Shown here: positions 9,245 to 63,785 of the stretch, one piece after another
How positions within the stretch are numbered: position 1 is the first letter of the stretch
Layout of the letters: every line of letters begins with the position of its first letter
Translations under genes and position numbers: made by a program
Notes under the pieces: model-generated
What the model was told of the DNA's origin: nothing
The model's input: only the letters and a program-made list of their open reading frames with translations
Databases searched by the model: none
Assembly (NCBI GenBank): GCA_003024785.1
Contig: PUQB01000021.1
Span: 467,009-531,008, forward strand
Source of the DNA: Selaginella tamariscina
Lineage: Eukaryota > Streptophyta > Lycopodiopsida > Selaginellales > Selaginellaceae
Length of the DNA stretch: 64,000 nt
Reading direction: 5' to 3'

Positions 9245-9377
9245 ATAAATAATTGTATTATTTATGATATCTGTTTATGCAATATTTTAAGAAATCTGAA
9301 TTACGGTTACTTAATAATATGCATATGCAATAATACATAATTATGTTTAGAGATAATATCTCATGTTTGATTAATAC

Positions 9378-18886: not shown

Positions 18887-19148
18887 GACGAATAGTTGTA
18901 AATGAGTGTAACATAAGGCATTTTTGTATATTTCTTTATATTTGTACAGAAAATAAATTCTCAAGGATTAATGAAGCTTTTAGTTCAAACATGGGTCACA
19001 CATTAACAAGGTAAATAATATACCTTGATAATTTTAAGGTCAGCTAATTATCATTTTGCAGATGTAATGAAAATTGAGAACATGGATTTTCAGCATTGCA
19101 TGAGGTAAGAGAGGGGTTTGGCGACAATTTCTTGTGCCACATGTCAGA
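18887..19148. other. Spacer upstream of the NIF-like gene
   Basis: AT-rich. GCATGAG|GTAAGAG near 19102 could be a donor of an upstream non-coding exon, but no acceptor was settled on. Nothing else is seen. Confidence 0.35.
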
Positions 19149-20189
19149 ATGACAGAGTTCATGCAGGAAATGGATAATAATGCAGCTCAAAACATCGTTA
19201 CCATGGGGGCCACTTCATCATCATTTTTATTGGCTTCAGTTCCGAAATCAATTTCTTCAGCGCATGCAATATCTGAATCTTGTAAGGATGATGTACAATT
19301 AAATGATGAAGGGATAGGCAACGAGATAGTGGCAACGGATAAATGTGAAAGGGAGCAAACAAGTGATTTGCAAAGTATTCAAGAGGCAACGCTATCTCAT
19401 GTTACTCATGGCCATATTGTGTTGTTGGATGTCAATGGTGTTCTGCTTCATCGACAAAGGCCCGAGGATAGGAAAAAAGAAATCAAACAAGGAGATTTCA
19501 TTCCTTGTCATGGTAAATTTCGATATGATATTATTTTTCGTCCAGGGTTGGATCGTCTCTTTCAAAAGCTTAAGGAGATGGGTGCGCTTGTGGGGATTTG
19601 GTCATGCATGCAGATTCATAACTTAACACCGCTGTTGAATTTACTTAAGAAACATTGTAGTGTTGCAGAAGAGGTGATTCGTAAAGATTGGATTTTTGAC
19701 CAGCGAATATGTTATAAACCTCTCGAATTTCACAATATAAGAAAGGAAAGCAAGCCATACTTCTTCAAGAATGAAAGAATAATTGGGACTCATGGGGAGA
19801 TCAGTCGCTTAAGGATAATGAAGAATGCACATATGTTAGTAGTAGACGACTCTCCTCAGAAGGCTATGCTCAACCAAAACATTGCTTGTATTCATCCAAT
19901 CACTTTCGATCCATATTCTGATACCGATATCATGGATGAGCTAGTGAACTACTTGGATACGTGCCTCAGAAAGAAGAATCTCGAAAATTTTTGTGAGCAG
20001 TATCCACCGTATCATACATTTCCTGAAGCTTTTCTTTCTCGTGATATTGAATTTTATAAAATGAAGGATAGCAACCGGGCGCTTTATAATATTATTCTTA
20101 AGGAACGTCAGTTTTTAGATGAGCCTTTATGCAGACCTTCTCACATCTTATGTATTAACAAGGATGGCAACTCCCAATTGCATTCGTGA
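19149..20189 (+). CDS. FCP1/NIF-like HAD-superfamily phosphatase
   Basis: 346 residues from the first ATG (MTEFMQEMDNN). Residues about 1-90 are low complexity; the rest is a NLI-interacting-factor (FCP1-like) domain. The order is HIVLLDVNGVLLHR (HAD motif I), FRPGLDRLFQKL, GALVGIWSCM (motif II region), KDWIFDQRICY and MLVVDDSPQKAML (motif III, DDSP). HAD phosphatases of this family usually have DxDxT; here the second Asp is Asn (DVN), as I recall for a plant NIF-like subgroup, so catalysis may be weak. After the stop, another frame continues as IRESVKWWQQHQDIDQ to a stop at 20287-20289, which may be the true C-terminus displaced by a one-base shift near 20165. The target and cellular site cannot be told. 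Confidence 0.8.
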   Translation: MTEFMQEMDNNAAQNIVTMGATSSSFLLASVPKSISSAHAISESCKDDVQLNDEGIGNEIVATDKCEREQTSDLQSIQEATLSHVTHGHIVLLDVNGVLLHRQRPEDRKKEIKQGDFIPCHGKFRYDIIFRPGLDRLFQKLKEMGALVGIWSCMQIHNLTPLLNLLKKHCSVAEEVIRKDWIFDQRICYKPLEFHNIRKESKPYFFKNERIIGTHGEISRLRIMKNAHMLVVDDSPQKAMLNQNIACIHPITFDPYSDTDIMDELVNYLDTCLRKKNLENFCEQYPPYHTFPEAFLSRDIEFYKMKDSNRALYNIILKERQFLDEPLCRPSHILCINKDGNSQLHS

Positions 20190-24091: not shown

Positions 24092-26080
24092 TTTCAATCG
24101 TTCAATCTCGTAAGCCTTGCGAACCAGGTATTCGCCGCAGATAGCCAAACACGGTTCCCTCTCACCAGCACCCACTCTCGCTAGGCCCGACTCAACCAGT
24201 TCCCGGATTTCAGCTTTGTGCCAATCTTTAAAGATACTAGGGCCTCCTGAATGCTTGAAGCAAGCCCAGCCGATGGTAGCCCGGCAAGCCCTTGGCAGAA
24301 AACTAGTCACGTCAGGGACACCATCCTCCGTGGTGGTATAACCTTTCTCAACGTACTCTGCTGCATCTCGCAGGTTGATGTCCCTCGACAGCATCACCTC
24401 CAACATAGAGACCAAAGGCGTGAACCTGCCTTTGAACCTCTTGAACACAAGTCCTCATAAAGTCTGCTTCCTCCTCGCTCATCTTTCACAGCAGCACCTG
24501 CTCACTGTACTCGATTGCCTCGTCTGCTGTGTGCCAGCATCCTTGGCAAACACTTGCACAATCTTGTTGTTGTAACTGCTGTATTGTATTTCTCAAGCAA
24601 ATCACGGTCGCCAGCGGCCCCGGAGAATACAACTCTGCCACCAAGTTCCTGGAAAAAAGCTCCCAGTGCTCTTGCCAACCCAAGCCCACAAGGTCATCTC
24701 TGTCACTGAAGCACCCGTGTAAAGCCATCCGGCATTGCTCAATGTCGTCTATCACACAAACGGGCATCTTACTAACAACTGAAGTAAACCCCTCCTTCAG
24801 CGTCCAGTGGTCACCGAGCTTATCCTTCTGCTTGCAAATCTTAGATTTTGAACACGTCTCCTGCTTCGCCAACTGGTGTACCATCTGAGTAGACTAACGC
24901 CCTGCATGTCGCCTGTAGCACCGGCCACTGCCTGTCACTCAGCCAAGTAGATTTTGAACACGTCTCCTGCTTCGCCAACTGGTGTACCATCTGAGTATGC
25001 ATGTCGCCTGTAGCACCAGCCACTGCCTGCACTCACCCTGTCTCTGCAGTACTCGTAAATCCTCATCCTCGCAGCCAGCAGCAGCTTCATTTGGTCTCCA
25101 ACCTTATTGGAAGGGAGCGAGTATATGAATGATTTCGTCGGCCATCTGGCCTAATCGGTCTGAGCAAGCCCGAAGGAACCTCCGTCACCAAGTACTCAAA
25201 GTCAGATGATCCGCAGTGCTCTTCTGATTTGCGAGCAGTCAAGTACAGACCACCTCTTCCTCCCTTGCTACACAGGTATTTGTAAAGCAGCCTTGTCTTT
25301 CCAGAACCATGTCCACCCGCAAGGTTGACCATTGAATTTGCAGCTTTTCTTCTAGGACACCCAAGTTCTCCTCAGTCTCATCACCCAGATGACTGAGGAC
25401 AAACATGGCTTGCCTTCACAGCTCACAACATGTGCACCACCTTGTACTTGACAAGACTCAGTTCCCCACTGGCATAGTCGTCCAACACCTGCTTTACTTC
25501 AACAGGTAGCTCAAAGTCTGTCTCTTCCGTCTTCTGCCTCCTCCACGAATCATTATTCAAGGAAGTCTCGTGCAGCATATCCTCGAGCTTACTCTTCAAG
25601 GCATCGTCATCTAACCCACTAAAGTATCTCTGTCCTCCCATCTTCTGCAGCCTAAGCAGGACCGATAAAACGTGTCCTCCGGCCTCCCAAAGAAATAGTA
25701 GGCCTCAGATTTCAATTTGGCTGCGATGCATGAAGCGAAGGTCAACACTTTGTGGGCCCACGTGTCCCAAAAACCAACAGTGGAGTCATCCACAACGAGT
25801 GACACCACCACCGTTATGTCATCTTCCTTCCATCCGTAACGCCCGAGCAGCATGAGGCTTGGCCAGAGAAGCTCCATCTCGAGCAAGGCCACTGGACACT
25901 ACAACCACCTCCTCCAGCGTCCTGCTATCGAAGAGCCCGTCGGTTGCACAGATGACAATGTCTCCTGACTGAACCGGCACCTTAAGCACCTCACCGAGCA
26001 TGACAGGGTCCATGGCACAAGGTTTCCTTGGCTCTCTGCGAGTTGCAAACCTGGTAAGGAAAATTGACGCGTTTTCTTGG
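24092..26080 (-). pseudogene. PP2C-NTPase fusion gene, truncated copy A
   Basis: A broken copy of the gene at 60656-63785. Reading leftward it begins inside the PP2C domain (KPCAMDPVMLGEVLKVPVQ) and continues through TDGLF, EDDITVVVS and the linker to HGSGKTRLLYKYL (Walker A), VCVIDDIEQ (Walker B) and FKRFKGRFTPLVSML. It ends near EYLVRKAYE. The first roughly 170 residues and the last roughly 250 are absent, and there are many frame breaks. A 106-bp segment is tandemly duplicated at 24842-25053. It is clearly non-functional. Confidence 0.9.
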
Positions 26081-27848
26081 AAGCGTGGCGCGTGTGTGAA
26101 GAGTATATACATATTTGTCATCTATGTGCATCTATTAACATAACATAAATATGAACACGTAATAAATATAAACATTATGTCAATTGGCATATAATTTTTA
26201 TGTTGTTTGTGTTTGCATTAATTTAAGAACATTATTAAGACCGATCTATATAGATTAGTGTTAATACCACTGCACTGGCAAAAATGAGAATGAATTTTTT
26301 GCATTATTTAAAATTATAAGCATGCAATTATGTACATACATGCACATAATATACTCTTTAAATCACTATTTTATACTTTTTAAATTTTTATGAATTATAT
26401 AGAAATTATAAACACACAGGTGAATATCATATCATTATTAATTATGTTGTGAAAAACGTTGCAAATCATTATCATATTTTTCTTATGTACATATATTTAT
26501 ATGTCTACTATATGTAGTATATTCATATGCACGTCTATATATATGTCTACACTGTAGCTCCCTCCTAACAGCCCGGATTTATCCCGAGAGATCTAATGGT
26601 GTTCGTATATATAACTACATTATATATAACGTAGCGTTTCATATACACACACATATACATATATCTTGTGTGTGTGTGTGTATGTATATGAAACAGTACA
26701 CATTGGAACATCTATCTATATTTACATATCTTTGTTTATACATGTGTAATATATATTATCTAGTTCTCTCTATCTCTCAAACACATGCATCATATAAACA
26801 CACACACACACACATGCAAAAGAAGTTCAAGGTCTTAGTTGCACTGCTTTCCTAAACTCTTATGTATACATACATACATACCCGTGTATATGTGTGTGTG
26901 TACTCAACATACATATATATAATATGTTACAACATTTTATATAAACATGTGATTGACAAAACATCAAGTGTACATACATTTATACATATATATCATGTAA
27001 TTGACATTATATAATTACATTATGCAACATATATTATATGTATCCCTTGGATGTGTGTAGTATTATATAGAAGACACATAAATATATTATATGAGCTGCA
27101 CATTCAAAAAATAATATAAGATAAAATATTTCAGTCAATTTAAGAAAATTATATATTTTAAGAAAGATTAAATCTTCTGTAAGACTCTACTTTGAGGTAT
27201 AAATACATGTGTACAGCGCACACACACACACACACATATGCATTTTGTGTATAAAGTACCATCAAAATGCACAATTTCTATCTATATAGCAACTACTTTA
27301 AAATTCACCAAATTGTATGTTTAAGCATATTCCATAAGTACATTCTGGCAAAAGACTGTATATTGATACGAATATAAAGGTAGTGTATTCTTAGACTTCT
27401 TTAATTCAATATGTGTACGTACACACACACATGTGTGTATGTATGTCTATGTATATGTTTGTGTATGCAGTATATCATATAAAACTAACAGTAATAGAAC
27501 TAGGTATGTGTATATGTAATTAGTTAGTAATAATTATGATACACATTCTATAAATATATAATATTAAAAATATGTAATCTTAATTAATGGACTTTATTGT
27601 GTATATACACATGTGCACGTAGGCATGTGCGTGTGCGTGTGCATGTCTTCAAGTGCTTGTTGACTTCTTATCAACTAAATATACATAATTTTAAAGAAAT
27701 TTAAAATATACCATAATAATTAGTTAATATTTTTATATGAATATTAATAATATGTATGTATGTATGTAAGGTAATAATATTGTGCTTTATTATAAGGCAC
27801 AAATACATGTCTACATTCTCATTTATTTTAGTAGATGTTATATTAATT
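26081..27848. other. AT-rich, microsatellite-rich non-coding DNA
   Basis: 26109-26240 matches 23100-23235. 27470-27640 (GTTAGTAATAATTATGATAC, ATATATAATATTAAAAATAT) matches 52515-52640, so the flanks of the PP2C-NTPase copies are duplicated with them. A partial palindrome CCCGGATTTATCCCG occurs at about 26573. No gene is seen. Confidence 0.6.
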
Positions 27849-27908: not shown

Positions 27909-28076
27909 TTGACAATGTATTATTCAATCTTTATTAAAATATTAAATGAAATATTAAAATACTGATTATATGTGTATTTTTGGCTTTTTATGTTGCTTCC
28001 AGTGCTTCTATATATATATATTTGAAAATCTGAGTTTGAAGATGCTGGAATATAAGGTATATACCCTAAACCAATC
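27909..28076. other. AT-rich junction DNA
   Basis: Includes TGTGTATTTTTGGCTTTTTA, also found at about 53212, downstream of the tRNA-like copy 3. No gene is seen. Confidence 0.5.
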
Positions 28077-28980
28077 CCTGACAGCATCACCTCCAACATA
28101 GAGACCAAAGGCGTGAACCTGCCTTTGAACCTCTCGAACACACAAGTCCTCATAAAGTCTGCTTCGTCCTTGCTCATCTTTCACAGCAGCACCTGCTCAC
28201 TGTACTCAATTGCCTCGTCTGTTGTGTGTCAGCATCCCTTGGCAAACACTTGCACAATCTTGTTCTTGTTCTCAAGCAATTCACGGTCGCCAGCCGCCCC
28301 AGTCAGAGAATACAACTCTGCCACCAAGTTTCTGGAAAAAAGCTCCCAGTGCTCTTGCCAACCCCAAGCCCAGTCATCCCTGTCACTGAAGCACCCGTGT
28401 AAGCCATCCGGCATTGCTCAATGTCGTCTATCACGCAAACGGGCATCTTACGAACAACTGAGGTAAACCTCTCCTCCTGCTTCCAGTGGTCACGGAGCTT
28501 ATCCTTGTCTTGCAAATCTTGGTCAAGAAGATCTTGAACACATCTCCTGCTTCCCCAATTGGTGTACCATCTGAGTAGACTAACGCCCTGCATGCCGCCT
28601 GTAGCACCAGCCACTGCCTACCACTCAGCCTATGTCTGCAGTACTTGTAAATCCAGCCAGCAGCAGCTTCATTTGGTCTCCAACCTTAGTGGAAGGGAGT
28701 GAACATAGAAAGAATAAGGATTTCGTTGGCCATCTGGCCTAATCGGTCTGAACAAGCCCCAAAGAACCTCCGTCCCAAGTACTCAAAGTCAGATGATTCC
28801 CAGTGCTCTTCTGATTTGTGAGCATTCAAGTACAGGCCACCTCTTCCTCCCTTGCTACACAAGTATTTGTAAAGCAGCCTTGTCTTTCCAGAACCATGTC
28901 CACCCGCAAACATGACCATTGAATTTTGCAGCTTTTCTTCTAGGACATCCAAGTTCTCCTCAGTCTCATCAAGGAGCCAA
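28077..28980 (-). pseudogene. PP2C-NTPase fusion gene, fragment copy B
   Basis: Only the NTPase part remains. From 28980 leftward: VLEEKLQNSMVMFAGGHGSG (Walker A), KYLCSKGGRGGLYLNA, the VCVIDDIEQ Walker B region (about 28440) and ERFKGRFTPLVSMLEVM near 28090. No PP2C codons and no C-terminal domain. Several frame breaks and small deletions compared with 60656-63785. Confidence 0.9.
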
Positions 28981-29099
28981 CATGTGTAGAGCTATAAAGA
29001 AAGTACTGATAAGTATTGATTGGCTTTTGAAAAGTCTCAAAGTCAAGAATATCTGTGGTGGCAGACCTGGATGTTGAGGATGTTTACTTCCATAGAGGA

Positions 29100-30250
29100 G
29101 ACCTTAAACCATAATCTTGATCAAACTGCAAAGGCAACTAACCAATCATTGGGAGAATTACAGTCATTCATCTAGACTCATGTTCCATAATCAATATACC
29201 TCTCAAGGAAAAAGGGCCACTGTGAACAAAGAAAAAGACAAGCTTATATCACAGCAAAGTTGCTCCCCATGGCTATCCATGAACATGTTGGAAGAGTTCA
29301 CCATTGAACTCAACAAAATTCTGTTCAAGAACAAGTCTTTTGTTAACATAATGAAGTCATCATGAATAATGTGCCCAAACTTATCAAAGACAAACTTGTT
29401 AAACATGTAGAGTCCTTCTTATGTTGGAATGCTAGATACAAGGCTTCGACATTAAAGGTGAAAAGCAAGCAATGGGGGAGCCGAGTTACAGAGACGAGTG
29501 ACATCAAATCTGGTTGGTTGTTCCTTAAGAAGATTGACCAGCCGATGTGCAACCACATCAAGAGATGTTCCTAGATAAAACCATTGTAACTAGCAATTTG
29601 TTTGCCCTCACTAGATTCTTGTGGATCTTTGGGAGGATGTAGAGCTGGCACGGGCGAAAACCTGAGTTTGACTTGTGGAAGAAGATACCTGACGGTATTC
29701 TCATAGATCTAGGTGCAGCTTTTGTACTTTCTAATGAGGGACTCCAATCGTTCGTAAAGTAGAACAAACAAAAAACCTCGTCAACATATTTGTACACCAG
29801 AGGATCTTGAAGTTGTCTATAAGCCTCTTTTAGATACCAAAATTTGTTGAGGAGGACTACTACAAAATTCTTGTCTGCTGGTTTAATGACAATTGAGGTG
29901 TCCCGCTTCAATGAGAGAAGTGCCTATAGAAACTTACCCTTATGGAACATTTTTGGTGCCAGCTGTGGAACCTTGTGAGAAGGGCTTATTTCAAAGTCCT
30001 TAGCTCTACTTCCATCACAGGCGGAGCTCGAGGGGAACAAAAGATGGAATGTAGAACCTAGGTGCAAGAGTATCGTTGTCCCTAAAGAGCTAAGTGAGAC
30101 GAGCTGTCCTTACAAAATCATCGAAGACATGATGGATTTCTGTAAGGTTTGTGGGGATGTATTTGAGGCCGTGAGCAAGTAACCTATGTTCTGACGGTGA
30201 GAATTGTCATGAAAAGAGGTTGTGAACTGCCATGATCTCCACTAGCTGTG
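29100..30250 (-). mobile_element. Penelope-like retroelement fossil
   Basis: Reverse-transcriptase blocks are read on the minus strand: KPADKNFVVVLLN with a following YLKEAYRQL, then CQLYILPKIHKNL, LLFTFNVEALY and QNFVEFNGELFQHVHG. This order (ADKN..VV, LPK.HK, DVEALY, F.FNG..F.Q..GTAMG) is that of Penelope-like reverse transcriptases. No LTRs and no GIY-YIG domain are seen. The copy is broken in many places and looks old. The DNA from 30250 to 30660 may be its 5' part, but nothing there is recognisable. Confidence 0.6.
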
Positions 30251-36127: not shown

Positions 36128-39100
36128 TTATCCCCCCCTCTGCGGTTGTGTAGATGGTGATGGATCTGATGGTCCTGGATCCGTGTGAGTTGGGCCATCT
36201 AAGGTATGACCGAATGTAGTCAACGAGTTTCGAACAACAAACCGTTTCATTCGAACTACGTGAACTATTTCAACCTCATGAGATCCCACCAACTGTACCT
36301 GATACACCTGAGGACCAACCTTTCGGAGAACTCGATAGGGACCAAGCCACTTATGAATAAACCAGTTGCAAGCCCAGGTGCGGTTAACTTGGGAAAACGT
36401 ACCAGTACTAAGTCACCGTCAGCATAGTCTGGTGGAGTTTGATGTCGTGCATTGTAAGAAGATTGTTGCTGTATTTGAGCCCGACCAAGATGTTCAGCAG
36501 ACTCTGCACGCAGAAGAGGTAAGACAGCATCCAAATGTCGAGCCCACATTTTCGCATCCTCGGCACGTGGCAGATTTGATGATAATCCAATTCACTAGGC
36601 AACTTAGGATCATATCCATACAATGCCTTGAATGGAGAGATACCAATCGAACTCTGAATGCCTGTTACATAAGCAAATCTCAAGCATCGCAAATACCAAT
36701 CCCAGTCAGTGTGATTGAAGTTCACATACTTCGAGATCATACCCTTGAAGGTCCGATTCAATCGCTCCACCAAACCATCAGTTTGTGGATGATATGGAGA
36801 GGCAAATGAGTGTTTTACCCCTAACCTCTCACAACACTCGGAATACCTCTGCAATGAAAGCGGGGCCATTATCTGATAACATCCGCTCTGGACAAGAATG
36901 CTGCAAAACCACATTATCGAACAAAAACAAAGCTGTTGACAGGGCAGTTGCATCCGGAAGAGCACCAACCTCCACCCAACGAGTTAAATAATCAGATACG
37001 ACAATGATGTACTGGTTACCTTGAGAAGAACGTGGAAAAGGTCCATTAAATCCACTGCAATTAACTCAAAAGGGCGAGAGACGTTGATGGATTCTAACAC
37101 CCCATGGCCCGAGTCGTAGAGGAATTCCGAATTTGACAAATGGGACAACTCTGAATATACCTGATCACATCACCACGCATGCTAGGCCATAAAAGGATCT
37201 GCGGAGCTTCTCCAACACTCGTTGGTGACCAAGATGACCTCCAACAATAGGCGAATCATGATATGCTCGAAGAAGGTGTGGAACATATGTAGAGGGCACA
37301 ACCAATCGCCATCTGTCGTCTGGATTTGTCCCAAAAAATACAATAAACCATCCTGAAGTCGAAACTGAGCATGATATTGTCGAAACTGCGGTTCGGAAGA
37401 GGACTTGCAAACGCATCCCGTAATGCCTCGTCCACGGTTCACGTTTTTGGGCATCCTGCCACTGTTCCAAGGATGGTAAGTCGGCATCGAATACCTGAGG
37501 GCTTGTATCAAACGAATGCTGCAGCGACTGCATGAGCAGGCAAAGTGGAATCAGAAAGGGGTGCTCGAGAAAGTGCATCCGCATCCACCATTGTTCGCCC
37601 AGGCCTGTGCACCACCTTAAAGTTATATACTTGGAGACGTAATGCCCATCTGGCTACACGACCCACTAGATTCTTCCGTTTTAGCAAGGAAGTGACAGCA
37701 GCATGATCACACTCCAAAAGTGTTTCACTCCCATGTAAGTAGGCATGAAGTCGTTCAAACCCCAAACAGCAGCAAGGCATTCTTTTTCAGTAGTGGAATA
37801 ATTCCGCTCAGCCAGCGTGAGTACTCGACTAATGTAAGCCACCGGGTGTCGAATTGAAGAATCCACAGCATCAGTTTGCATCAATACACCACCAATACCA
37901 ACATCTGAGGCATCTACTCGTAAAATGAACGGACGAGTAAAATCTGGGTATTGAAGCAATGGTGGAGTTGTCAGGAACTCTTTTAACTGGTCAAATGCCT
38001 GCTGACACCTGCGAGTCCACCTGAAAGATACCTGTGGACGAACTAACTCCCGAAGAGGGGCAGTTCGATCAGTGAGATGATCGATGAATCGACCCAAGTA
38101 CTGCACCGTGCCCAAGAAACGCTGGACTTCCTGTACTGTACGAGGACGAGGGAACTCTCGAACAGCTCGCAACTTCATTGGATCCACCTGTAAACCCTCT
38201 CGAGATATACGGTAACCCAAGTAAGTGGTGTCGGTCGAACCAAACACACACTTTTCAAGTTTCAACTTCAGGCCAACTTCTCGAAATCGATCAAGAACGC
38301 GCCGTACATCACGAATGTGATCCTCCCAAGAACCAGACCCATGAATGAGCACATCGTCGATAAAATCGGCAGTGATATCAGGCATATCGGAAAGAAGCTC
38401 ATCCATCATGCGTTGAAAGGTGGCAGGAGCTGAAGTCAATCCAAAAGGCATGACCAAAAACTCGTAAAGACCAAATGGTGTCCGGAAGGCCGTTTTTGGA
38501 ATATCCTCCTCAGCCATAGGAACCTGCCAATATCCTGATGCCAAATCCAACTTAGTAAACCATCGACTCTGACCCAAACGATCTAATAGATCGGCAGAGT
38601 TCGGAAGTGGATAGACATCTTTGATGGTAACATCGTTAAGAGGTCGGTAATCCACACAAAATCGGAGAGATCCATCAGGCTTGGGAACCAAATGAGGTTC
38701 ACATGCCCATGGACTCCGTGACGGACGACACACTCGTTTACCAATCATATCAGTAACAGCTGTTCGCATGGCTGATAACTCCTTTGGTGACCTGCGTCGA
38801 ACCGGGACTTTGAAAGGCTTTGCATTGCCGGTGGGTATACAGTGTCGAGTCTTCACACGTGCACCTTGGGACAGATCAAATTTGAACAAACTTGCATACT
38901 GTTTCTTAAGTTGTTCGATGCAGTGTGCTCGACACTCAGGTGACGGATCCGGCATTTGAACCTGTTGAGATGAACACCACCCCAAGACCGGAATCAAAGG
39001 AGCTGTATGCGTGATACAAACAGCAACAAGCTTCTCTGGACGTAAAGGAACAGACTGCAAAGACACAGACTCCAAGCGTAATACAGGAGGAGAGAGTGAA

Positions 39101-40642
39101 AAATCACATGTACCTTTCGACTGCTTTAACCAATCACATCCCAGAATGATGTCAAAGACCTGGGAAGGGACAACCCTAAGAGACCCAGAGGGAAACTTAC
39201 AGTTGGCACCCATAACCAGCGTAGTCAAAGTGGTGTACTGTGATACTGCACGAGACTGCCCATTACCATATAAAATGTGCAAGACCTTATCTGCACGTCT
39301 TAAGGGTAATGAGCACCGATGCGCTAGAGAAGCAGTTATGGAAGACATACTGGATCCTGTATCCACAAGCACTGTGACTGAAAGATCATTCACCCGTGCA
39401 GAAAATGTGAAAACTGGATGATCTGGTGGAACTTGCAAACCTTGATATGCATAGCGGAAAAAACATGGAGGTGAAGTCTCCATCGCACGGGATCCCTCCG
39501 TCGCCCGTACGATTACTCGTTTTCCGCAACAGATCCACCTGCAAGAGAGGCTTCGTCGTCTGAAAGCTCATCATTAGCCATAATGGCCGCCACAGGCACA
39601 CCATCCGGAACATATGGTCGCCAGCCTGGATGTGGTGGACGCCAATCAGGATACACATCGCATGCCCTCAAGTATGTCCAGGCCCAACAGGCCCAACAAT
39701 GAACTTGATTGGGTCGACCTGCATTGTTCCGATTCCTCCTGTCACGAATCCGTGGATTTTGACCACCACGGGCAGGACTGGAGCAGGTGCAGGACGATTT
39801 CGTGGAGGTGGTCCACGGGGTGGGCCCCGAGGTCGACCACGAAAGGCTTGCGTGCGGGCACATATGCAGCAGCATCAACCTCCATTGGATCAGCACGCTG
39901 AACAAGAGGAGCAGGTAACCCAAGGGGAACACGGCCCTCACCAGGCACCAACTCAAAACGTTGAGCTAGTGCAAAAGCTTCCTCCAATGTGGTAGGACGA
40001 AGAGCCCGAACGAATCGAACAAGTTCGGGTCGCATAGTTGGCCATAACATACCGAGCTTAATGGCTCAGGCATGTTAGGATATGCACGCCGAACTAAATC
40101 CCCGAACCTAATACTGAACCGCATAACAGACTCACCAGGATGTTGTCGTATCGCATGCAGTTGTTGGAAAGCATCATCTGAATCCTCAACTTTGCCAAAC
40201 GTACGTTTGAGGCATTCCGTTAACCGATTACTATTGGCTTGAATCTCCGCAGCCAATCCATTATACCACTTGAGCGCAGGGCCTTCCAAACATGTAGGGA
40301 ATTCTCTGAGAGCACGGGCCTCATCCCAACCATGGTAACGAACAATGACTTGGAAATGATCAAACCAGTGGTATACATCATCTCCCGGATCACCACAAAA
40401 AGATCGGGGTCGAACCCTCGGATTTGTGGCCTGTGAAGAAGATGAAGGAGTACTAGAAGCAGATCCCCCGGCATGAGGCTCAGACGGGGAAGAGGAGGAC
40501 GAACCCTCAACAAAGCGCTCCAACAACTTTGTTTGTGCATCAATAGCAGTAGCAATAATGCTAAACGCCGTCTCCATATTCATCGTCATGAAAACACGAA
40601 AAGGAAAAGGCGGAAGAAAGGAATACCCAACTTCTCCACCAA

Positions 40643-40846
40643 TGAAAGAGCCGATATATATTAAAAATGTCAGATCATTAAGCTACAAAAACCCTGCTTA
40701 TATACAGGAGACCTCCTGCCACGTGGCACACATGCGACACGTGGCACTGACACATGGCGGCCAGATCACCACCCATGTGTCACTATGCATGTGTGTATAT
40801 ACACATGCGTATATACGTTACATTACATAATATACAGTATCTTACA
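40643..40846 (-). repeat. 5' LTR of the Ty3 element
   Basis: Same boundaries as the left LTR. The adjoining internal sequence on the minus strand, TTGGTGGAGAAGTTGGG, is where a primer-binding site would lie, but the tRNA was not identified. Confidence 0.9.
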
Positions 40847-41874: not shown

Positions 41875-44526
41875 TTACATGCTATACATAGTTCTTGAGA
41901 GGCGTTTTTCGACGCACACCGAAAATGATTCCCCATGGTTTGTTCCAGAATGCTATAATATATAGCATCAAAGAGAAACTAGTCACTGCAGCCAATGCAA
42001 ATGCAGGCAGCGACATAAATTCCTCAATCCTTTGCAGCATGCCATAATGAACCACCGCTTCTAAACGACTTGAGCTTGTACCGTTCACTGTTGATAAGCA
42101 CTTATGTGGTAACATTGCACCGCACAACTCTGGATTGCCTAGATAGCTGTCCAAGCCAAACGTATCAAACTGGCCACTTTCTGGAACTGGGCCTTGTAAC
42201 TTATTGAAGGAAACATTGAAGTAGGCAAGAAAAGTCAGCTTGGACAATGTGGCTGGAATTATCCCACTGAATTGATTATAGGATAAGTCGAGGCTCTCCA
42301 GTTTTGTTAGGTTGTCCAAAGTCGGTGGAAGTTGACCGGAGAGCTTGTTATGTGAGAGATTCAGAAAGTGAAGACCAAAGATCTGACTCCCAATGGCCTC
42401 AGGAAGCTCTCCAAACAACTCATTTTGAGATAGATCCAAAAGCCCATGTCCGATCGAAGGTATTTATATGTCATTTCTCGCCCTTTGATATTAACCATAT
42501 AATACCCTCCAAACGAACCATAGCCGGACGGAAATGTGAGATTCAAGTTAGATGGAAGCCTGCCCCGGAGCTGGTTGTGTGAAAGATCTAGAAAATGAAC
42601 ACGTCGAAGATGCCAGATCCAACTAGGTATGCTTCCAATGAACTGGTTATTTGCTGCAGAAAGTATCACCAATCGGTCAATTGTATCATTTGTAGCCAAG
42701 GGAAATTGACCGGAGAATAAGTTGTTTGATATGTTGAGCAGCATAAGATTCTGCGATAACCTTGGAAAGTTACCAGTCAAGAGATTTGATCCCAGATACA
42801 AGGAATCAAGAGAACTGTTGGGATGGAGATTGACATGTCCAATCAAACGGTTGTTCTCAAGGTTTATCGAGTAAATGTGTGGTAGTTCTGCAAGCCCACA
42901 TATAAGCAAGAGCAATTATTGATTTTTAGAGCTTACCAGTAATGCTGGTCGGTATATAACCAATAAGTTGATTGTTGTCCAAGATAAGTCGTCTTAAACC
43001 GCTACAATTCCCCAATGTGGAAAGTATTGTACCATGCAATCTGTTGGAACCTAAATATAAAAACATCAAGTTTTGTAGCAATCCCACCTCCGGAGGTATT
43101 TCACCAGTTAACATATTGTTGCTGAGATCTAAAATCTCCAAATTCTGCATCATTCCCAAGTTCGAAGGAAGAGGGCCTGTCAAACTATTGTTGCTGAGAT
43201 CTAAATAACCAAATTCTGCATCATTCCTAAGTTTGAAGGAAGAGGGCCTGTCAAACTAACGTTACTAAGATGCAACTCTGTGATGCTCTTCATCTCACAC
43301 ACTGATAACAGTATGCTTCCCACTGAGAATGAATTGGATGACAAATCAAGCTCTTGTAAGTGCGTGAGTTGAGAAATCTGTGGTGGGATGAACCGTTGAG
43401 TTGGTTGGCACGCAGATTCAAAATTGTGAGGCTCCTCAGTTCCCACAATGGCAATGGTATGCCTCCTGAAAGTGAATTCCCTGCCAAATCCAACACTTCT
43501 AACTTTGTAAGCTGAGATATCAACGGTGAAATGGAACCGTTGAACATGTTAAAACTAAGCTCCAAATCCCTAAGGCTCTTCAGTTCCCACAATGTCAATG
43601 GTATGCCTCCTGAAAGTGAATTCTGTGACAAATCTAACACTTCTAACTTTGTAAGTTGAGAAATCAACGGTGAAATGGAACCATTGAAACTGTTAATACT
43701 AAGATCCAGATGTTTAAGGCTCCTCAATTCCCACAACGTGAATGGTATGCCTCCTGAAAGTGAATTCCTTGCCAAAGTCAAAACTTCCAACTTTGTAAGC
43801 TGAAAAATCAACGGTGAAATGGAACCATTGAACATGTTAAAACTAAGTTCCAAATGCCTAAGGCTCTTCAGTTCCCACAATGTCAATGGTATGCCTCCCG
43901 AAAGAAGAATATTCCCTGATAAATCTAACACTTCCAACTTTGTAAGCTGAGAAATTAGTGGTGAGATAGAACCATTTAAGCTGTTACCATTAAGATTCAG
44001 ATGCCTAAGGCTCCTTAGTTCCACAATGTCAATGGTATGCCTCCTGAAAGATGCGACACAGTGTCTCCTGAAAGAAAAAATTTTGTGACAAATCCAACAC
44101 TTCCAACTTTGTAAGCTGAGAAATCAAAGGTGAAATGGAACCATTGAAGCTGTTACGTGTAAGATTAAGATGCTTGAGACTCCTCAGTTCCCATAAGAAC
44201 AAAGGCAAGCCGCCATGAAGAAAATTATGAGACAAATCCAACACTTGCAAAGAAAATAGTTTTGAGATTTGAGATGGTATTGAACCATTAAGGCCGATTG
44301 AGCTTAACTCAAGTTTAACAACGTGGCCGGTGGCATCGTTGCATTCGACACCCATCCAAGAGCAATGGGAGACTTTTGGAGTCCAGTCAGGTAAGATTGC
44401 TGTGCTATTGTACATGGCTTGCTTGAGAGCAGTCAGTGCTTCAACCTCCTCTTTGTAGATAGAAGACTTGGTGGCAGCAACATAAATATGAAAAATGATT
44501 GCTAAAATCAATGGATACGAATGCAT
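41875..44526 (-). pseudogene. LRR receptor-like protein, frameshifted copy 2
   Basis: Paralogue of 949-3520, with the same plan: signal peptide from ATG at 44526 (MHSYPLILAIIFHIYVAATK), CSWMGVEC cap, about 20 LRRs (LTKLEVLDLS.N.LSGGIPL repeats), island near NIKGREMTYKYL, LCGAMLPHKC cap, transmembrane helix and short tail, stop 41875-41877. The 49-bp intron is at 42888-42936. It has about one more LRR block than copy 1. Frame breaks lie near 44035, 43390, 43205, 42440 and 41906; the last is a T run one longer than in copy 1. The two copies are broken at partly different places, so their common ancestor was probably intact. Confidence 0.85.
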
Positions 44527-44584
44527 TCTTAACAAAAAAGAAAAAATCAAATTCTTATTAAATGCAAACAAACTGCATCTCTAC

Positions 44585-55387: not shown

Positions 55388-58300
55388 TCATTTTCCATAA
55401 ACACGTCTGCGAAAACAAAAGTGGTCACATGTATCTCTCACTACCCCGATCTCTGCTTGAGTGAAGGCCAGTTTGATATTCTCATTGTCCAGCAGAAGAG
55501 TGACCTTGAGCTTTCCAGGGGCAACCTCTTCGAAGGACCACTTGGGCAATCCCTCCACTACCTGGAACGATCAACCAGCACAAAGCAAGGTAAACATCTG
55601 GAATCCAATCCCCCCCGGGTTCCATCCCCACAAGAATGACCTCCTCCTTGACAACAGCTCCTCCGAGTATACGTAGTTCTCAGGAAAGTGAAGATGATGG
55701 AAATAGCCAACACATGCCAGTGCCATCAAACACGATCCTCCCTGCTGCACTTGAAGTGGAGAAATCCTTGGCTATCCACTGTAGAAATGTGCACCTGGGC
55801 TGCTCATCACAGAAGAAGTCTTCAAGTTTCAGCCCGTCGCTCATTGGTAGCACACATTGTTCATTGTTCTCCAAGAAAGCACTCGTAGACTTGGACAGGA
55901 TTTTCAGCTGCATCGGGCACTTGTCGTCCTCTAGGAGCTCCTTGAAGATGGGCATGTCTTCTAATACCCCCTTGTACTCCTTCCACATTCTCAGGAAGCA
56001 GAAGGGAACTAAGTCATACTTTTCGGCCGACTTGGTGACCTCCGACTTGGTGGTCTCAACCCGTCCCTCGGGTTGAACAGGTTGCATCCATTCCGTGGAT
56101 GTGACTCCGTGCATGTTCTCGTAAGCCTTGCGAACCAGGTATTCGTCGCAGATAGCCAGACACGGTTCCCTCTCATCAGCACCCAGTCTCGCTAGGCCCG
56201 ACTCAACCAGTTCCCGGATTTCAGCTTTGTGCCAATCTTTGAAGACACTAGGGCCTCCTCCCAACACGGAATGTTTGAAGCAAGCCCAGCCGATGGTAGC
56301 CCGGCAAGCCCTTGACGAGGACGCAATGCTCTTGCAGAAACTAGTCACTTCAAGGACACCATCCTCCGTGGTGGTATAACCTTTCTCAATGTACTCTGCT
56401 GCATCTCGCAGGTTGACGTCCCTCGACAGCATCACCTCCAACATAGAGACCAAAGGCGTGAACCTGCCTTTGAACCTCTCAAACACACAAGTCCTCATAA
56501 AGTCTGCTTCGTCCTCGCTCATCTTTCTCAGCAGCACCTGCTCACTGTACTGGATTGCCTCGTCTGCTGTGTGCCAGCATCCCTTGGCAAACACTTGCAC
56601 AATCTTGTTGTTGTAACTGCTGTATTTGTATTTCTCAAGCAAATCACGGTCGCCAGCAGCCCCGGAGAATACAACTCTGCCACCAAGTTCCTGGAAAAAA
56701 GCTCCCAGTGCTCTTGCCAACCCCAAGCCCACAAGGTCATCCCTGTCACTGAAGCACCCGTGTAAAGCCATCCGGCATTGCTCAATGTCGTCTATCACAC
56801 AAACGGGCATCTTACTAACAACTGAGGTAAACACCTCCGTCGGCTTCCAGTGGTCACGGAGCTTATCCTTCTGCTTGCAAATCTTGGCCAAGAAGATTTT
56901 GAACACGTCTCCTGCTTCTCCAACTGGTGTACCATCTGAGTAGACTAACGCCCTGCATGCCGCCTGTAGCACCAGCACTGCCTGTCACTCAGCCTGTCTC
57001 TGCAGTACTCGTAAATCCTCATCCTCGCAGCCAGCAGCAGCTTCATTTGGTCTCCAACCTTCTTGGAAGGGAGCGAGTATGAATATGAATGATTTCGTCG
57101 GCCATCTGGCCTAATCGGTCTGAGCAAGCCCGAAAGAACCTCCGTCACCAAGTACTCAAAGTCAGATGATCCCCAGTGCTCTTCTGATTTGCGAGCAGTC
57201 AAGTACAGGCCACCTCTTCCTCCCTTGCTACACAAGTATTTGTAGAGAAGCCTTGTCTTTCCAGAACCATGTCCACCCGCAAGCATGACCATTGAATTTT
57301 GCAGCTTTTCTTCTAAAATTTGGAGGACACCCAAGTTCTCCTCAGTCTCATCACCCAGATGACTGAGGAGCAAACATGGCTTGCCTTCACAGCTCACAAC
57401 TTGTGCACCACCCTTGTACTTGACAAGACTCAGTTTCCCACTGGCATAGTCGTCCAACACCTGCTTTACTTCAACTGGCAGCTCAAAGTCTGGCTCTTCC
57501 GTCTTCTGCCTCCTCCAATTATTATTGAAGGAAGTCTCGTGCAGCATCTCCTCGAGCTTACTCTTCAAGGCATCGTCATCTAGCCCACTAAAGTATCTCT
57601 CTCCTCCCATGTTCTGCAGCCTAAGCAGGACCGATAAAACGTGGTCCTCCGGCTTGCCAAAGAAATAATAGGCCTCAGATACCAATTTGGCTGCGATGCC
57701 TGAAGCGAAGGTCAACACTTTGTTGGCCCACGTGTCCCAAAAACCAACAGTGGAGTCATCCACAACGAGTGACACCACCACCGTTATGTCATCTTCTTTC
57801 CATCCATAACGCCCCAGCAGCATGAGGATCTCGGCCAGAGCTTGTGGAGAAGCTCCATCTCGAGCAAGGCCACTGGACACTACAACCACCTCCTCCAGCG
57901 TCCTGCTATCGAAGAGCCCGTCGGTTGCACAGATGACAATGTCTCCTGACTGAACCGGCACCTTAAGCACCTCACCGAGCATGACAGGGTCCATGGCACA
58001 AGGTTTATCCTTGGGTCTCTGCGAGTTGCAAACCTGGAAAGGAAAATTGACGCCAGCCGTCTGGAAAGTGGACTTGGCAAGCAGCTTGCCATTCCGAATG
58101 ACCAAACAGCCAGAGTCGCCCATGTTTGCAATGTGGAGGACGTTTTTGCCGTCTGCCAAGCCTCCGGCAAGTAGCACTGTCGACGAACCAATGGACTTCG
58201 TTTGCCGCGTAGCCTCCACCATCACCTTGAGCAAACCATTGTCTTCGTCCTTGACATGTGGCTTCAGAGCCAGAATTTCCTTGCACTTGGTCATCAGCTC

Positions 58301-58456
58301 CCTTGCAAAGTCACCTGCATCGATGCGTTCTTCTGTGTACCAGGAACCCACGCCATCGGCAACCCCAACCCAGTCGCTGCCGATGAAGTACGCATCCTCG
58401 CTGCGCCTGCCCCCGCTCTTCGCTTCTGCGGCTGCTCCCGACCATAGGTTGGACAT
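55388..58456 (-). CDS. PP2C phosphatase-P-loop NTPase fusion, copy C
   Basis: Starts at ATG 58456 (MSNLWSGAAAEAKSGG) and aligns along its whole length with copy D. Residues about 15-260 are a PTC7-type PP2C with the metal-binding acidic residues: SEDAYF, GVADGVGSW, NMGDSGCLV, ATDGLFDS and KEDDITVVV. A linker follows, then GGHGSGKTRLLYKYL (Walker A, about 57.27 kb), VCVIDDIEQC (Walker B, about 56.8 kb), FKGRFTPLVSMLEVML and a C-terminal region to the stop at 55388-55390. The protein would dephosphorylate Ser/Thr and bind ATP; targets are unknown. Frame breaks: one missing C near 56976 (CAGCACTG versus CAGCCACTG in other copies) and small deletions from about 55715 on. Unlike copy D it lacks an N-terminal targeting-like leader. 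A telobox-like AAACCCTA lies just upstream. Confidence 0.8.
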
Positions 58457-58629
58457 CGCTCGCTCCTAAACCCTAGCCCTAATTAGCTGAATTAAATTTC
58501 TTTAGGAGTTAGATTTAGTTTCACACACACATATATATAACTCAGAAAGTGACAAGCCATGGATGGATGAGCTAACCAGAACTGTCGAAGGTAACTACAT
58601 ATACGGAGTGTGTGTGTGTGTGTGTGTGG

Positions 58630-58666
<37 letters not shown>

Positions 58667-58800
58667 GAGAGAGAGATAGGTATTCAGCTTATTATGAAAT
58701 ATTATTTAATGTTATATAAAGTTGAAGGTAGTCCAAAATCATATACACAGTATAATATATATAATAATATTTAATACTATTATTATATTGAGCTGTACAC

Positions 58801-58859
<59 letters not shown>

Positions 58860-59062
58860 ATGTATACACGTAAAAGTCAAACTCTGAGGCATATACTTAT
58901 TATTATTCCATATATAATATGTATACACCTCTCTCACTCTCTATATATTCAGCTTACCCGGGAGATATATACTATGAATACATAATAGCGATCTAGTTTA
59001 TACATACTTTTTTATCAAACGAACTTAATTAAATAAATAATATATGCAAAAATCATATGTTT

Positions 59063-59118
<56 letters not shown>

Positions 59119-60655
59119 AAGTTTCAAGTTGTTTGGCAAAATTATAATTTAGTACATCTATATATTATTAGTATATAGGAACAATTATAATTAATATACG
59201 AGATTATATTGCTGGACTTGAATACTGTATGGGCATTGCCAAAGTCTACACAGTCTGGATTAACTTAAATATGTTACTGTTTACTTATACTGCAAGTAAA
59301 TCTTATATATTTGTGTACTTTAAACTAAACTACTATCCATATGAATTAAAATAAACTAAAATACAAATCAAATTTGCATAACTATGTTATCTATATAATA
59401 CAAAATGATCCTCTATATATATATATATATATACTTAATTTGGTCTTTCGATGCTTTTCATACACTCCTTTCTTAAGCTGCCCACCGATAGAAACAAGTC
59501 CTGAACAAGATTATACTAGTTATGTAGGTACATATTGTATATATATTTATCACTATATTATATATTAGTCTGTATATGTTTGTTATATAAACTATATATA
59601 TATATAATATCATTGATTGAACACTTAAGATTAACAAACCTCAAGGGACATCGGAGTGTCTTATCGTTAATTTCCGGAAATAGTTAATATGAGTTTTCCG
59701 GTACCAGTTTTTGGGAAGAGCCTTATAGGACTAATATTTCTGGACTCTCCCGTCAAATATTTCCGGCTTGCACTGCTATTTAACGTCGTTCCATTACTGC
59801 AAATATTTATTTAATGAAAATTAATTAGTATACTAATGTGAAACTAATAGTATAGTTTAGTATACTCTAAACCTTTTACTGCTGAAGTTTAAAGGTTCTT
59901 ATTTCACATACGGTAATTCAACAATCTCAATAATCTTTCACATTTCTTTTTCATTTACAAACCATATGGGTTTGATAAAGCGTTTGAATCAGATTTTTAA
60001 GATATAATTATTAAGTATGTAAATCTTATTCAAAACCATTGAAATTGACATTTACAATAATTCAAAATTATTTTATTAAATAGCACTATTATAATATTAG
60101 TTTAAGAGTTTGTGAGTTTAAATTAAAACTGCATTATCAATATTTGAACATAAAAATACTCATTTCGGATTTACTTGAAGGTTGGAGTTTACCAAACTAT
60201 ATTATTACATTAGTATACTAATCAATATGTTTCTTGTAGAGATTTCATAAAGAAAGCATTTAACACAAAAAATGGCTCAGACAGTGGCAAGAGCATGAAC
60301 ATCTGTGCATATAGTGTGAATACATAGATAATATATTGTACATATCAAGTATATTTACTGTCACACTATGTTAATAGTTAGCTTTGTTTAATACTAATTA
60401 TAAAAATCATGGTGATTAAACAAATTAGCCATTTATAGTTAAATTTTATGTTAAGACATTTATTATATCAATTAGAATATTATAATAATAATATGATGAG
60501 TTTTTCCATCTTGAATATGGTAAATTATTATGTTATATTAATGAATTTCCTAGTATTATAAATAAATGAATATTAAATAAAACATTATAATTTATGAACG
60601 TGTTGTAAAAACATTGATCTCCACCGTTAAATTTAATCTTGATTTAGGGTCTAGG
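58457..60655. other. Divergent spacer between PP2C-NTPase copies C and D
   Basis: A head-to-head intergenic region of 2.2 kb, AT-rich with CA and TA microsatellites (58602-58665, 58796-58852, 59063-59112). AAACCCTAGCCCTAA at 58468-58482 resembles the plant telobox in front of copy C. TTTAGGGT occurs just before copy D. No other gene is seen. Confidence 0.6.
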
Positions 60656-63600
60656 ATGAGGTGGGCATTCTTGAATCGAGCTTTAGGCTTGACAACGGCC
60701 AAAAGCTTTTCAAAAAGCTCTTCAAGAAGCAATTTCCTATGGTCGGGAGCAGCCGCAGTCGCAGCACCGAAGAAGGAGGGCAGGCGCAGCGAGGATGCCT
60801 ACTTCATCGACAGAGACTGGGTTGGGGTTGCCGATGGCGTGGGTTCCTGGTACACAGAAGAACGCATCGATGCAGGCGACTTTGCAAGGGAGCTCATGAC
60901 CAAGTGCAAGGAAATTCTCGCTGTGATGCCACATGTCAAGGACGAAGACAATGGGTTGCTCAAGGTGATGGCGTTGGCTACGCGGCAAACCAAGCCCATT
61001 GGTTCGTCGACAGTGCTACTTGCCGGAGGCTTGGCAGACGGCAAGAACGTCCTCCACATTGCAAACATGGGCGACTCTGGCTGTTTGGTCATTCGCAATG
61101 GCAAGCTGCTTGCCAAATCCACTTTCCAGACGGCTGGCATCAATTTTCCTTTCCAGGTTTGCAACTCGCAGAGACCCCGGGATGAAACTTGTGCCATGAA
61201 CCCTGTCATGTTTTGAGGTACTCAGGGTGCCGGTTCAGTCAGGAGACATTGTCATCTGTGCAACCGACGGGCTCTTCAATAGCAGGACCCTGGAGCAGGT
61301 GGTTGTAGTGTCCAGTCGCTTTTCTCGAGATGGAGCTTCTCCACAAGCTCTGGCCAAGATCCTCGTGACGCTCGGGCTTAATGGATGGAAGGAAGATGAC
61401 ATAACGGTGGTGGTGTCACTCGTTGTGGATGACTCCACTGTTGCTATTTCGGACCACAAGTCGTGGATCGACAGAGTGTTGACCTTAGGTCCAGGCATCG
61501 CATCCAAATTGAAAGCTGAGGCCTACTATCGCTTTGCTAGTCCTGATGTCGAAGTTTTATGCGTCCTGCTCAGGCTGCAGAAGATGGGAAAGGAGAGATA
61601 CTTTAGTGGGCTAGATGACGATGCGTTGAAGAGTAAGCTCGAGGAGATGCTGCAGGGGACTTTCTTCGATAATGATCGGGAAGAGCCAGACTTTGAGCTA
61701 CCAGTTGAAGTAAAGCAGGTGTTGGACGACTATGCCAGTGGGAAACTGAGTCTTGCCAAGTACAAGGGTGGTGCACAAGTTGTGAGCTGTGAAGGCAAGC
61801 CATGTTTGCTCCTTAGTCATCTGGGCGATGACACTGAGGAGAACTTGGGTGTCCTAGAAGAAAAGCTGCAAGATTCAATGGTCATGCTTGCGGGTGGACA
61901 TGGTTCTGGAAAGACAAGGCTTCTCTACAAATACTTGTGTAGCAAGGGAGGAAGAGGTGGCCTGTACTTGACTGCTCGCAAATCAGAAGAGCACTGGGGA
62001 TCATCTGACTTTGAGTACTTGGTGACGGAGATTCTTTCGGGCTTGCTCAGACCGATTAAGCCAGATTGGCGAGGAAAGCGTTCATATTCACACTCGCTCC
62101 CTTCCAATAAGATTAGAGACCAAATGAAGCTGCTTCTGGCTGCGAGGATGAGGATTTACGAGTACTGCAGAGACAGGCTGAGTGACAGGCAGTGGCTGGT
62201 GCTACAGGCGGCATGCAGGGCGTTAGTCTACTCAGATGGTACACCAGTTGGAGAAGCAGGAGACGTGTTCAAAATTTTCTTGGCCAAGATTTGCAAGCAG
62301 AAGTATAAGCCGGGGGAGCGGTTTACTTCAATTGTTAGTAAGATGCCCGTATGTGTGATAGACGACATTGAACAATGCCGGATGGCTTTACACGGGTGCT
62401 TCAGTGACGAGGATGACATTGTGGGCTTGGGGTTGGCAAGAGCACTGGGAGCCTTTTTCCAGGAACTTGGTGGCAGAGTTGTATTCTCCGGGGCTGCTGG
62501 CGACCGTAAATTGCTTGAGAACCGTGAATTGCTTGAGAGCTATAGCGCGACCAAGAACAAGAAGAAGGTCGTGCAAGTGTTTGCCAAGGGATGCTGGCAG
62601 ACAGCAGACGAGGCAATCGAGTACAGTGAGCGGGTGCTGCTGCAAAAGATGAGCAAGGAGGAAGCAGACTTTATGAGGACATGTGTGTTCGTGAGGTTCA
62701 AAGGCAGGTTCACGCCTTTGGTCTCTATGCTGGAGGTGATGCTGTCCAGGGACGTCAACCTGCGAGATGCAGCAGAGTACATTGAGAAAGGTTATACCAC
62801 CACGGAAGATGGTGTCCCTGAGGTGACTAGTTTCTGCAAGAGCATTGCGTCCTTGTCAAGGGCTTGCCGGGCCATCATCGGCTGGGGTTTCTTCGAGCAT
62901 TCCGTGCTGGGAGGAGGTCCTATTGTCTTTGGAGATTGGCGCAATAATTGGCGCAAAGCTGAAGTCCGGGAAGTGGTTGAGTCGGGCCTAGCGAGACTGG
63001 GTGCTGGTGAGAGGGAACCGTGTTTGGCTATCTGCGACGAATACCTAGTTCGCAAGGCTTACGAGAACATGCACGGAGTCACATCTATCGAATGGATGCG
63101 ACCGGTTCAACCCGAGAAACAGGATGAGGCCCCCAACTCGGCCAGAGAGTATGACTTGGTTCCCTTCTGCTTCCTGAGAATGTGGAAGGAGTACAAGGGG
63201 GTATTAGAAGACATGCCCATCTTCAAGGAGCTACTAAAGGACGACAAGTGCCCGATGCAGCTGAAAGTCCTGTCCAAGTCCAGGAGTGCTTTCTTGAGCA
63301 ACAATGAACAATGTGTGCTACCAATGAGCGACGAGGTGAAACTTGAAAACTTCTTCTGTGATGAGCAGCCCAGGTGCACATTTCTACAGTGGATGGCCAA
63401 GGATTTCTCCACTTCAAGTGCAGCAGGGAGGATCGTGTTTGATGGCACTGGCATGATTGTTGGCTATTTCCATCATCTTCACTTTCTTAAGGAGCACGTA
63501 TTCTCTTGGAGGGAGGGAGCTGTTGTCAAGGACGGAGGTCATCTTGTGGAGATGGAACCCGGAGTGGATTGGGTTCCAGATGTTTATCTCTGCTTTGTGC

Positions 63601-63785
63601 TTGATCCGTTCCGGGTACTGGAGGGATTGCCCAAGTGGTCCTTCAAAGAGGTTGCCCCTGGAAAGCTCAAGATCACTCTTGTGCTGGACAATGAGAATAT
63701 CAAACTGGCCTTCACCCAAGCAGAGGTCCAAGTAGTGAAAGATACATGTAACCATTTTTCTTACAATCGCGGACGCATGGTTTAG
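60656..63785 (+). CDS. PP2C phosphatase-P-loop NTPase fusion, copy D
   Basis: The best copy, about 1040 residues. The start at ATG 60656 gives MRWAFLNRALGLTTAKSFSK, rich in Arg/Ser/Lys and without acids, like an organelle-targeting leader; PTC7 relatives are mitochondrial or plastid. PP2C motifs follow (SEDAYF, GVADGVGSWY, NMGDSGCLV, ATDGLFNS, EDDITVVVS). A two-base deletion at about 61210 (ATGTTTTGAGG) shifts the frame between VMF and VPVQSGD. From 61227 the frame is open for 852 codons: a linker rich in Asp/Glu, GGHGSGKT (61893-61916, Walker A), CSKGGRGGLYLTARKSEEH, VCVIDDIEQ (about 62350, Walker B), VVFSGAAGDR (possible sensor), FKGRFTPLVSMLEVML, and a C-terminal domain with cysteines (FFCDEQPRCTF). 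PP2C identity is firm. The NTPase clade is not; some features recall STAND or Crinkler-type NTPases, but that is a guess. Confidence 0.85.

Follow-up and report, generated by a model that had tools for sequence, protein, structure and literature searches.

Does Selaginella tamariscina encode a protein in which a PTC7-type PP2C phosphatase is fused to a large P-loop NTPase, and if so, to what kind of NTPase? The question arises from a locus in the 64,000-nt stretch of DNA that we analysed (the window, which corresponds to C516:467009-531008 in the numbering of contig C516; coordinates are those of the window unless a contig is named), where a preliminary description had placed one protein carrying the acidic PP2C motifs, Walker A and B motifs and a cysteine-containing C-terminal domain.

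Copies in the window and across the genome

When motif positions were checked, all of the named motifs were found at their stated place in this locus (copy A, 60656-63785): SEDAYF (60788-60805), ADGVGSW (60830-60850), ATDGLF (61260-61277) and EDDITVVV (61392-61415) of the PP2C, the Walker A motif GGHGSGKT (61893-61916) and the Walker B motif VCVIDDIEQ (62349-62375). The locus does not, however, read as one protein: counted between stops, there are two frames (60581-61216 and 61200-63785), and a 2-nt deletion near 61213, inside the PP2C part, is the cause. In alignments this deletion maps to 61210-61215 relative to copy B (see below) and to an intact copy on contig C577, and copy C is likewise ungapped there. 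An intron that would rescue the frame of copy A was considered and rejected by reasoning: copy B is open at this place without an intron, and an intron of usual length would cut conserved PP2C residues.

Up to the frameshift (60656-61213), copy A encodes an N-terminal stretch, the first 26 residues of which are basic and include no acidic residue, followed by the first part of the PP2C, which was assigned from its motifs and through the 89%-identical counterpart in copy B that served as query for the PDB search. The remaining PP2C domain with ATDGLF and EDDITVVV (61227-61436) leads into a linker (61437-61781), fast-changing as judged from A/B codon changes, then into a probable Crinkler-type NTPase core with a winged-helix-like region (61782-63071; hhalign E 4e-11 to three paralogues) and finally into a C-terminal region of ~237 residues (63072-63785; all on the plus strand), for which profile and pairwise comparison detected no relatives and which lacks PD...[DEQ]xK. 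Within the NTPase part we take GGRVVFSG (62469-62492) to be a sensor-like motif and the region that ends with CDEYLVRKAYE (63033-63065) to be akin to a winged helix. The C-terminal domain, previously put at about 250 residues with cysteines, comes to about 240 residues with some cysteines, after the winged-helix-like region.

Copy B lies head to head with copy A on the minus strand. Frames, motifs and a PDB match show that one uninterrupted frame of 503 codons (56945-58456) covers its PP2C, the linker and Walker A, and frames and alignment place the remaining NTPase and C-terminal region (55406-56984) past a 1-nt deletion near 56977; a cluster of indels marks its 3' end. The lesions of the two copies are complementary, copy B being open across the lesion of copy A and copy A across that of copy B. 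By alignment, copy C (24106-26121, minus strand) is a decayed copy reaching from a PP2C remnant to the winged-helix-like region and copy D (28075-28991, minus strand) a fragment of the NTPase core, both with many frameshifts. All four window copies are thus frame-broken in this assembly, and errors in assembling near-identical repeats may account for some of the frameshifts. The earlier mention of four copies of low divergence holds for copies A and B, which are 90.9% identical over aligned bases, but copies C and D are frameshifted fragments, with 96.7% and 94.4% identity, respectively, to copy B over ungapped bases. Together, copies A and B (55406-63785) constitute a ~3-kb inverted repeat, its arms separated by ~2.2 kb, which, if transcribed through, could yield double-stranded RNA.

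Several other features share the window. Two loci of the LRR receptor-like-protein type (949-3541 and 41882-44580, both on the minus strand; LRRNT_2 and LRR_1 in Pfam) have broken frames; they are duplicated with their flanks, lie ~41 kb apart with main blocks 84-91% identical, and are interleaved with the PP2C-NTPase copies. A GC-rich tandem array (13944-15131) is made of units that contain the near-palindrome GGCGGGATTAATCCCGCC. The remains of a Ty3/gypsy-type retroelement (36408-40682, minus strand) include aspartic protease, RT and RNase H domains (Pfam) as well as gag- and integrase-like frames recognized by eye, and an open frame at 19104-20189 (plus strand) encodes a NIF/FCP1-type phosphatase domain (PF03031, E 8e-12). 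Two frames at 7291-9274 (minus strand), the first with DUF7869 (E 2.8e-13) and the second without a Pfam match, are presumably transposon-like, and a short frame at 29558-29923 (minus strand), for which Pfam gave no match at 0.01, resembles what we take to be a Penelope-like reverse transcriptase.

The fused gene belongs to a larger family. In the genome (1391 contigs, 300.7 Mb), at least 101 match pieces were found when the NTPase and C-terminal part served as query, and at least 69 when the PP2C part did. Joining pieces by strand and by distance (<1500 nt) gave at least 42 clusters, of which 28, on 11 contigs, hold both modules, seven the NTPase only and seven the PP2C only. For three of the seven PP2C-only clusters (on C715, C901 near 167 kb and C1270), querying the genome with just the NTPase core, at a limit of E 1, revealed NTPase pieces downstream of the PP2C; these were left out of the count of 28. 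The recent local expansion proposed earlier is borne out by four head-to-head pairs on C516 (357-459 kb) at steps of 29-34 kb, to which the A/B pair of the window (522-531 kb) adds a fifth; C577 and C1070 carry one pair each. Copies of A type, with the basic N-terminal stretch, comprise window copy A and those on C577, C1070 and C516 near 456 kb; copies of B type are without it. Considered as a possible organelle-targeting sequence, the stretch has a helical moment of at most 0.48 and no acidic residues, and it is absent from the B-type copies read.

Thirty loci cut out from the NTPase/C-terminal search, some of them overlapping, were examined for five marks (two PP2C, two Walker and one C-terminal). 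Two of them, on C577 and C1144, hold all five in a single frame, the C1144 frame diverging from the other copies near its end. The C577 gene encodes a complete protein of 1043 residues with both PP2C and NTPase (P0001) and is identical to window copy A except for the 2-nt gap of the latter. The flanks are more diverged: 35 alignment columns differ within 1 kb upstream of the gene, and 47 downstream of it as far as the window reaches.

That two separate genes were joined by misassembly or by the reader could be argued from the two frames of copy A. Against this, copy B carries both modules in a single frame, the PP2C lies upstream of the NTPase in each of the 28 two-module clusters on their 11 contigs, and the joined frame is intact on C577. 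Misassembly, which the preliminary description had raised as a possible cause of the fusion, is therefore excluded at the DNA level; two separate genes are extremely improbable, and we regard the fusion as real with near certainty.

Uneven constraint between copies A and B

Gaps and codon changes between copies A and B were counted over A 60737-63455; the 5' ends, which are unrelated, and everything 3' of A 63455 were left out. Eight of the ten gaps in this part are multiples of three (P 0.0034); against copy B, the corresponding figures are 5 of 19 for copy C and 2 of 11 for copy D. Beyond A 63455, copy B has gaps of 2, 7 and 1 nt and copy A one of 2 nt, none a multiple of three, and copy B is decaying at this 3' end.

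Among the 885 codon pairs compared, 119 codon changes are nonsynonymous and 45 synonymous. Changes of the first kind are clustered (variance/mean 2.75, a value as high being reached in 0/2000 shuffles), those of the second kind are unclustered (variance/mean 0.8, p 0.75), and the two differ in this respect by label permutation (p 0.0004). The linker holds the largest share of changed codons, with 30 nonsynonymous against 7 synonymous codon changes from A to B in 61437-61853 (linker and onward), and there are no A/B changes inside the Walker A motif. Strong purifying selection between the two copies is not shown, because dN/dS over the whole gene is 0.757 (bootstrap 0.55-1.08), a value not distinguishable from 1, and substitutions are spread 70/57/72 over the three codon positions. 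Constraint between copies A and B is uneven rather than strong.

These numbers bear on whether the family is dying, that is, whether one accidental join, multiplied by segmental duplications in the neighbourhood of LRR genes, survives mostly as functionless pseudogenes. Such an account would fit the broken frames of all four window copies, the 28 of 30 (partly overlapping) loci without a frame holding all five marks and the global dN/dS that cannot be told from 1. It fits poorly with the intact 1043-residue copy on C577 and with the A/B comparison, where eight of ten gaps are in frame, nonsynonymous changes are clustered and Walker A is unchanged. The lower divergence of the gene than of its flanks between C577 and the window likewise speaks against it, although recent copying or conversion could also explain this. 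On balance we consider general decay an unlikely, if serious, account of the family.

The phosphatase, the NTPase and the C-terminal region

The assignment of the phosphatase to the PTC7 type was confirmed by PDB searches, in which residues 14-210 of the copy B frame matched 6ae9 (entitled 'Probable protein phosphatase 2C 1') with E 1.4e-15, as against 1.4e-3 for the next best PP2C, PPM1H; the intact P0001 matched the same 6ae9 chain with E 7.7e-14. We take 6ae9 to be a member of the PP2C7 group. The SEDA, ADG, DG and DD aspartate motifs, which include the residues that we assume to coordinate metal, are present both in the single frame of copy B and in P0001. Pfam PP2C models stayed below their cut-offs for these two frames. 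Outside the family, the nearest PP2C7 relative in the genome is 44% identical and lies on C1226 (L051, C1226:169200-172000), where PP2C7-like motifs occur twice within 2.8 kb in split frames, suggestive of a pair of domains or of an intron-containing tandem duplication; weaker PP2C relatives were found by genome search as pieces on C604 and C1337.

Standard models say little about the NTPase. No Pfam or NCBIfam model reached its cut-off for the family and no PHROGs profile matched at E 0.1; the best NTPase match in Pfam was the sub-threshold, AAA-type AAA_16 (E 0.011). Neither NB-ARC nor NACHT matched in Pfam up to E 10, a range in which HMMER filters drop most weak matches, and P0001, the N-terminus of which is the PP2C, gave no LRR and no Crinkler model in Pfam at E up to 1. 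PDB searches with the second half of the fusion returned nothing below E 0.1, structure predictions were unusable (mean pLDDT 31.7 and 38.9), and the PADLOC profiles that matched around the P-loop were mads_8 (E 0.0045 and 0.047) and GajB (E 0.058). Two further candidates were rejected: a match to the MspI endonuclease (E 0.18 and 0.17) lies over the NTPase and not over the C-terminus, and L008, a locus resembling a phage protein that scored E 1.4e-4 among 11 Walker A-pattern loci (31% identity over 95 columns with 29 gaps), aligns in the surroundings of the P-loop and was judged a chance match. Protein scans of viral contigs and genome contigs found no relatives outside the source genome.

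A search of the source genome with the NTPase core at low threshold was more informative. Outside the family it returned several contigs with weak matches sharing one segment and, besides these, an open frame of 728 codons on C531 (27% identity, E 0.26), which, used as query, led in turn to open frames of 710 and 742 codons on C1187 and C1377 (31% identity). These three intact frames (L052:93-2276 on C531, L054:148-2277 on C1187 and L055:109-2334 on C1377) share a layout of a P-loop NTPase, a helix-turn-helix-like region and a C-terminus with SGPD[VI]M...[VI]PVF.Q[FL]KLR; C531 itself has a sub-threshold match to AAA_22 in Pfam (E 4e-4) and nothing in PDB below E 0.8. From this layout, compared with published descriptions of CR proteins, we take them to be putative Crinkler-type (CR) proteins.

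The stretch over which the fused family aligns with these three paralogues begins ahead of Walker A and takes in the whole winged-helix-like region. By pairwise blastp, two of them matched (E 8e-6 for C531 and 8.5e-6 for C1377), with no match to C1187 at 1e-3. Profile comparison with hhalign gave E 2.3e-6 for C531, E 9.9e-7 in a further comparison (score 53.5, the highest score among 60 shuffles being 25.8) and E 4e-11 (probability 97%) for the three-member profile of C531, C1187 and C1377; a piece on C1227 (328 codons open) aligned over 53 columns with E 8.1e-7. The comparison with the three-member profile lends support to the early guess that the NTPase is Crinkler-like, and a kinship of the fused NTPase with the CR type is, as judged from these alignments, quite likely. 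The alignment starts upstream of Walker A, in the linker, where residue 315 of P0001 pairs with residue 43 of C1377; the PP2C-NTPase junction therefore probably falls between residue ~255 of P0001, at which the PP2C ends, and residue 315.

According to an excerpt of PMC5289972, which reports Zhang et al. 2016, CR proteins have an NTPase+HTH+REase layout and occur in land plants; their N-terminal header varies, and NTPase+REase is a prevalent C-terminal layout. Since CR headers vary, the missing Crinkler header does not by itself exclude CR membership. The last ~237 residues are another matter, with no relatives found in Pfam or by profile and pairwise comparison. Set against the CR-like paralogues, they gave an hhalign E of 0.9 and a score of 16.4, below the shuffle maximum of 22.0, and the PD...[DEQ]xK motif that all three paralogues carry is absent from the C-terminal region of P0001. 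As far as sequence can tell, the protein combines a PP2C7 with a Crinkler-type NTPase and has no recognisable nuclease; lacking this defining part, the fused family is not a full CR member.

The same comparisons bear on a reading in which the protein is a CR-type conflict protein, the PP2C being its header (an address label or a phosphorylation regulator) and the C-terminal region an effector that has diverged, perhaps a nuclease whose active site has changed. The variable CR header with the NTPase+REase at the C-terminus (PMC5289972, excerpt) and the homology that reaches into the linker would agree with it; a C-terminal region that scores no better than shuffles against the paralogues' C-termini and lacks the motif found in all of them does not. 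We consider this reading, too, unlikely, if serious.

Proposed gating and known systems

Taken together, the data are best explained by a protein in which a PTC7/PP2C7-type phosphatase precedes a CR-type P-loop NTPase, a segment resembling a winged helix and an orphan C-terminus, and which may be gated by nucleotide; we hold this explanation with some confidence. ATP binding (and hydrolysis) by the NTPase would alter the conformation or oligomeric state of the protein and so gate the phosphatase; by analogy with nucleotide-switch NTPases, binding of ATP might rearrange the NTPase-HTH unit and thereby expose or order the PP2C. The PP2C would be the output, in place of the nuclease of ordinary CR proteins, and sensing may fall to the linker, which changes fast, and to the C-terminal region. 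In CR proteins, regulation of the nuclease has been attributed to the NTPase (PMC5289972, excerpt); in the fused protein, the enzyme on hand to be regulated would be the phosphatase. Resting as it does on analogy, this nucleotide-gated phosphatase is offered as a tentative working mechanism, the likeliest in our view.

A role in immunity or in conflict with invaders, inferred more weakly than gating, is doubtful. More speculative still is the wider picture that, within a plant, a CR NTPase which once switched a nuclease came to switch a phosphatase, its nucleotide state setting an organelle-type PP2C on or off. The result would be a receptor-like phosphatase that diversifies in gene clusters next to those for LRR receptors and that parallels NLRs while acting through dephosphorylation. 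CR-type proteins are best known as pathogen effectors. For some plant CR proteins it has been proposed, in the excerpt of PMC5289972, that they target invasive DNA. The missing recognisable nuclease, together with a well-understood enzyme as possible output, would make the family a testable handle on the CR NTPase switch.

How does this architecture compare with known systems? The earlier claim that no plant PP2C joined to a STAND NTPase had been described is not supported, since PP2C is listed among NLR-fused domains in strawberry, barley and two wheats (PMC4759884, in part). These proteins share with the fused family a plant PP2C joined to a nucleotide-switch protein, but they are NLRs of flowering plants, whereas for the fused family Pfam showed neither NB-ARC nor NACHT at E values up to 10, and no LRR. 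With PP2C7/PTC7 phosphatases (PMC4524716; PDB 6ae9) it shares the catalytic domain and the aspartate motifs. Of 251 PP2C7s in the survey, 228 (~91%) have no known accessory domain and the PP2C is typically C-terminal, whereas in the fused family it is N-terminal with ~790 residues after it; an NTPase, which the fused family has, is not among the accessory domains named in the text section of that survey (PMC4524716).

Akin to CR proteins as described in the excerpt of PMC5289972, the fused family has an NTPase and winged-helix-like part, homologous to three same-genome paralogues of CR layout, but it differs in having a PP2C in place of a known CR header and in that a nuclease is not recognisable. 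Algal TIR-PP2C7 proteins, reported in Chlamydomonas and Volvox in the same text section of PMC4524716, also combine PP2C7 with an immune-signalling domain, the partner being a TIR there and an NTPase here. In Selaginella, NACHT-like NTPases have been proposed as additional P-loop STAND NTPases of a lycophyte (PMC4773052, in part); a Walker A described there for Selaginella STAND NTPases reads GA[GS]GAGKT, as compared with GGHGSGKT and no NACHT match in the fused family. We found no report of a PP2C7 paired with a CR-type NTPase in the open-licence literature searched.

Within the parts of these sources consulted, fusions of PP2C with a plant nucleotide switch (NLR-PP2C, PMC4759884) and of PP2C7 with an immune-type domain (algal TIR, PMC4524716) are already known, and what appears to be new here is a CR-type NTPase architecture with a PP2C7 in front and without the defining nuclease. 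If true, this would give plants a further way, apart from NLRs, of linking nucleotide switching with dephosphorylation.
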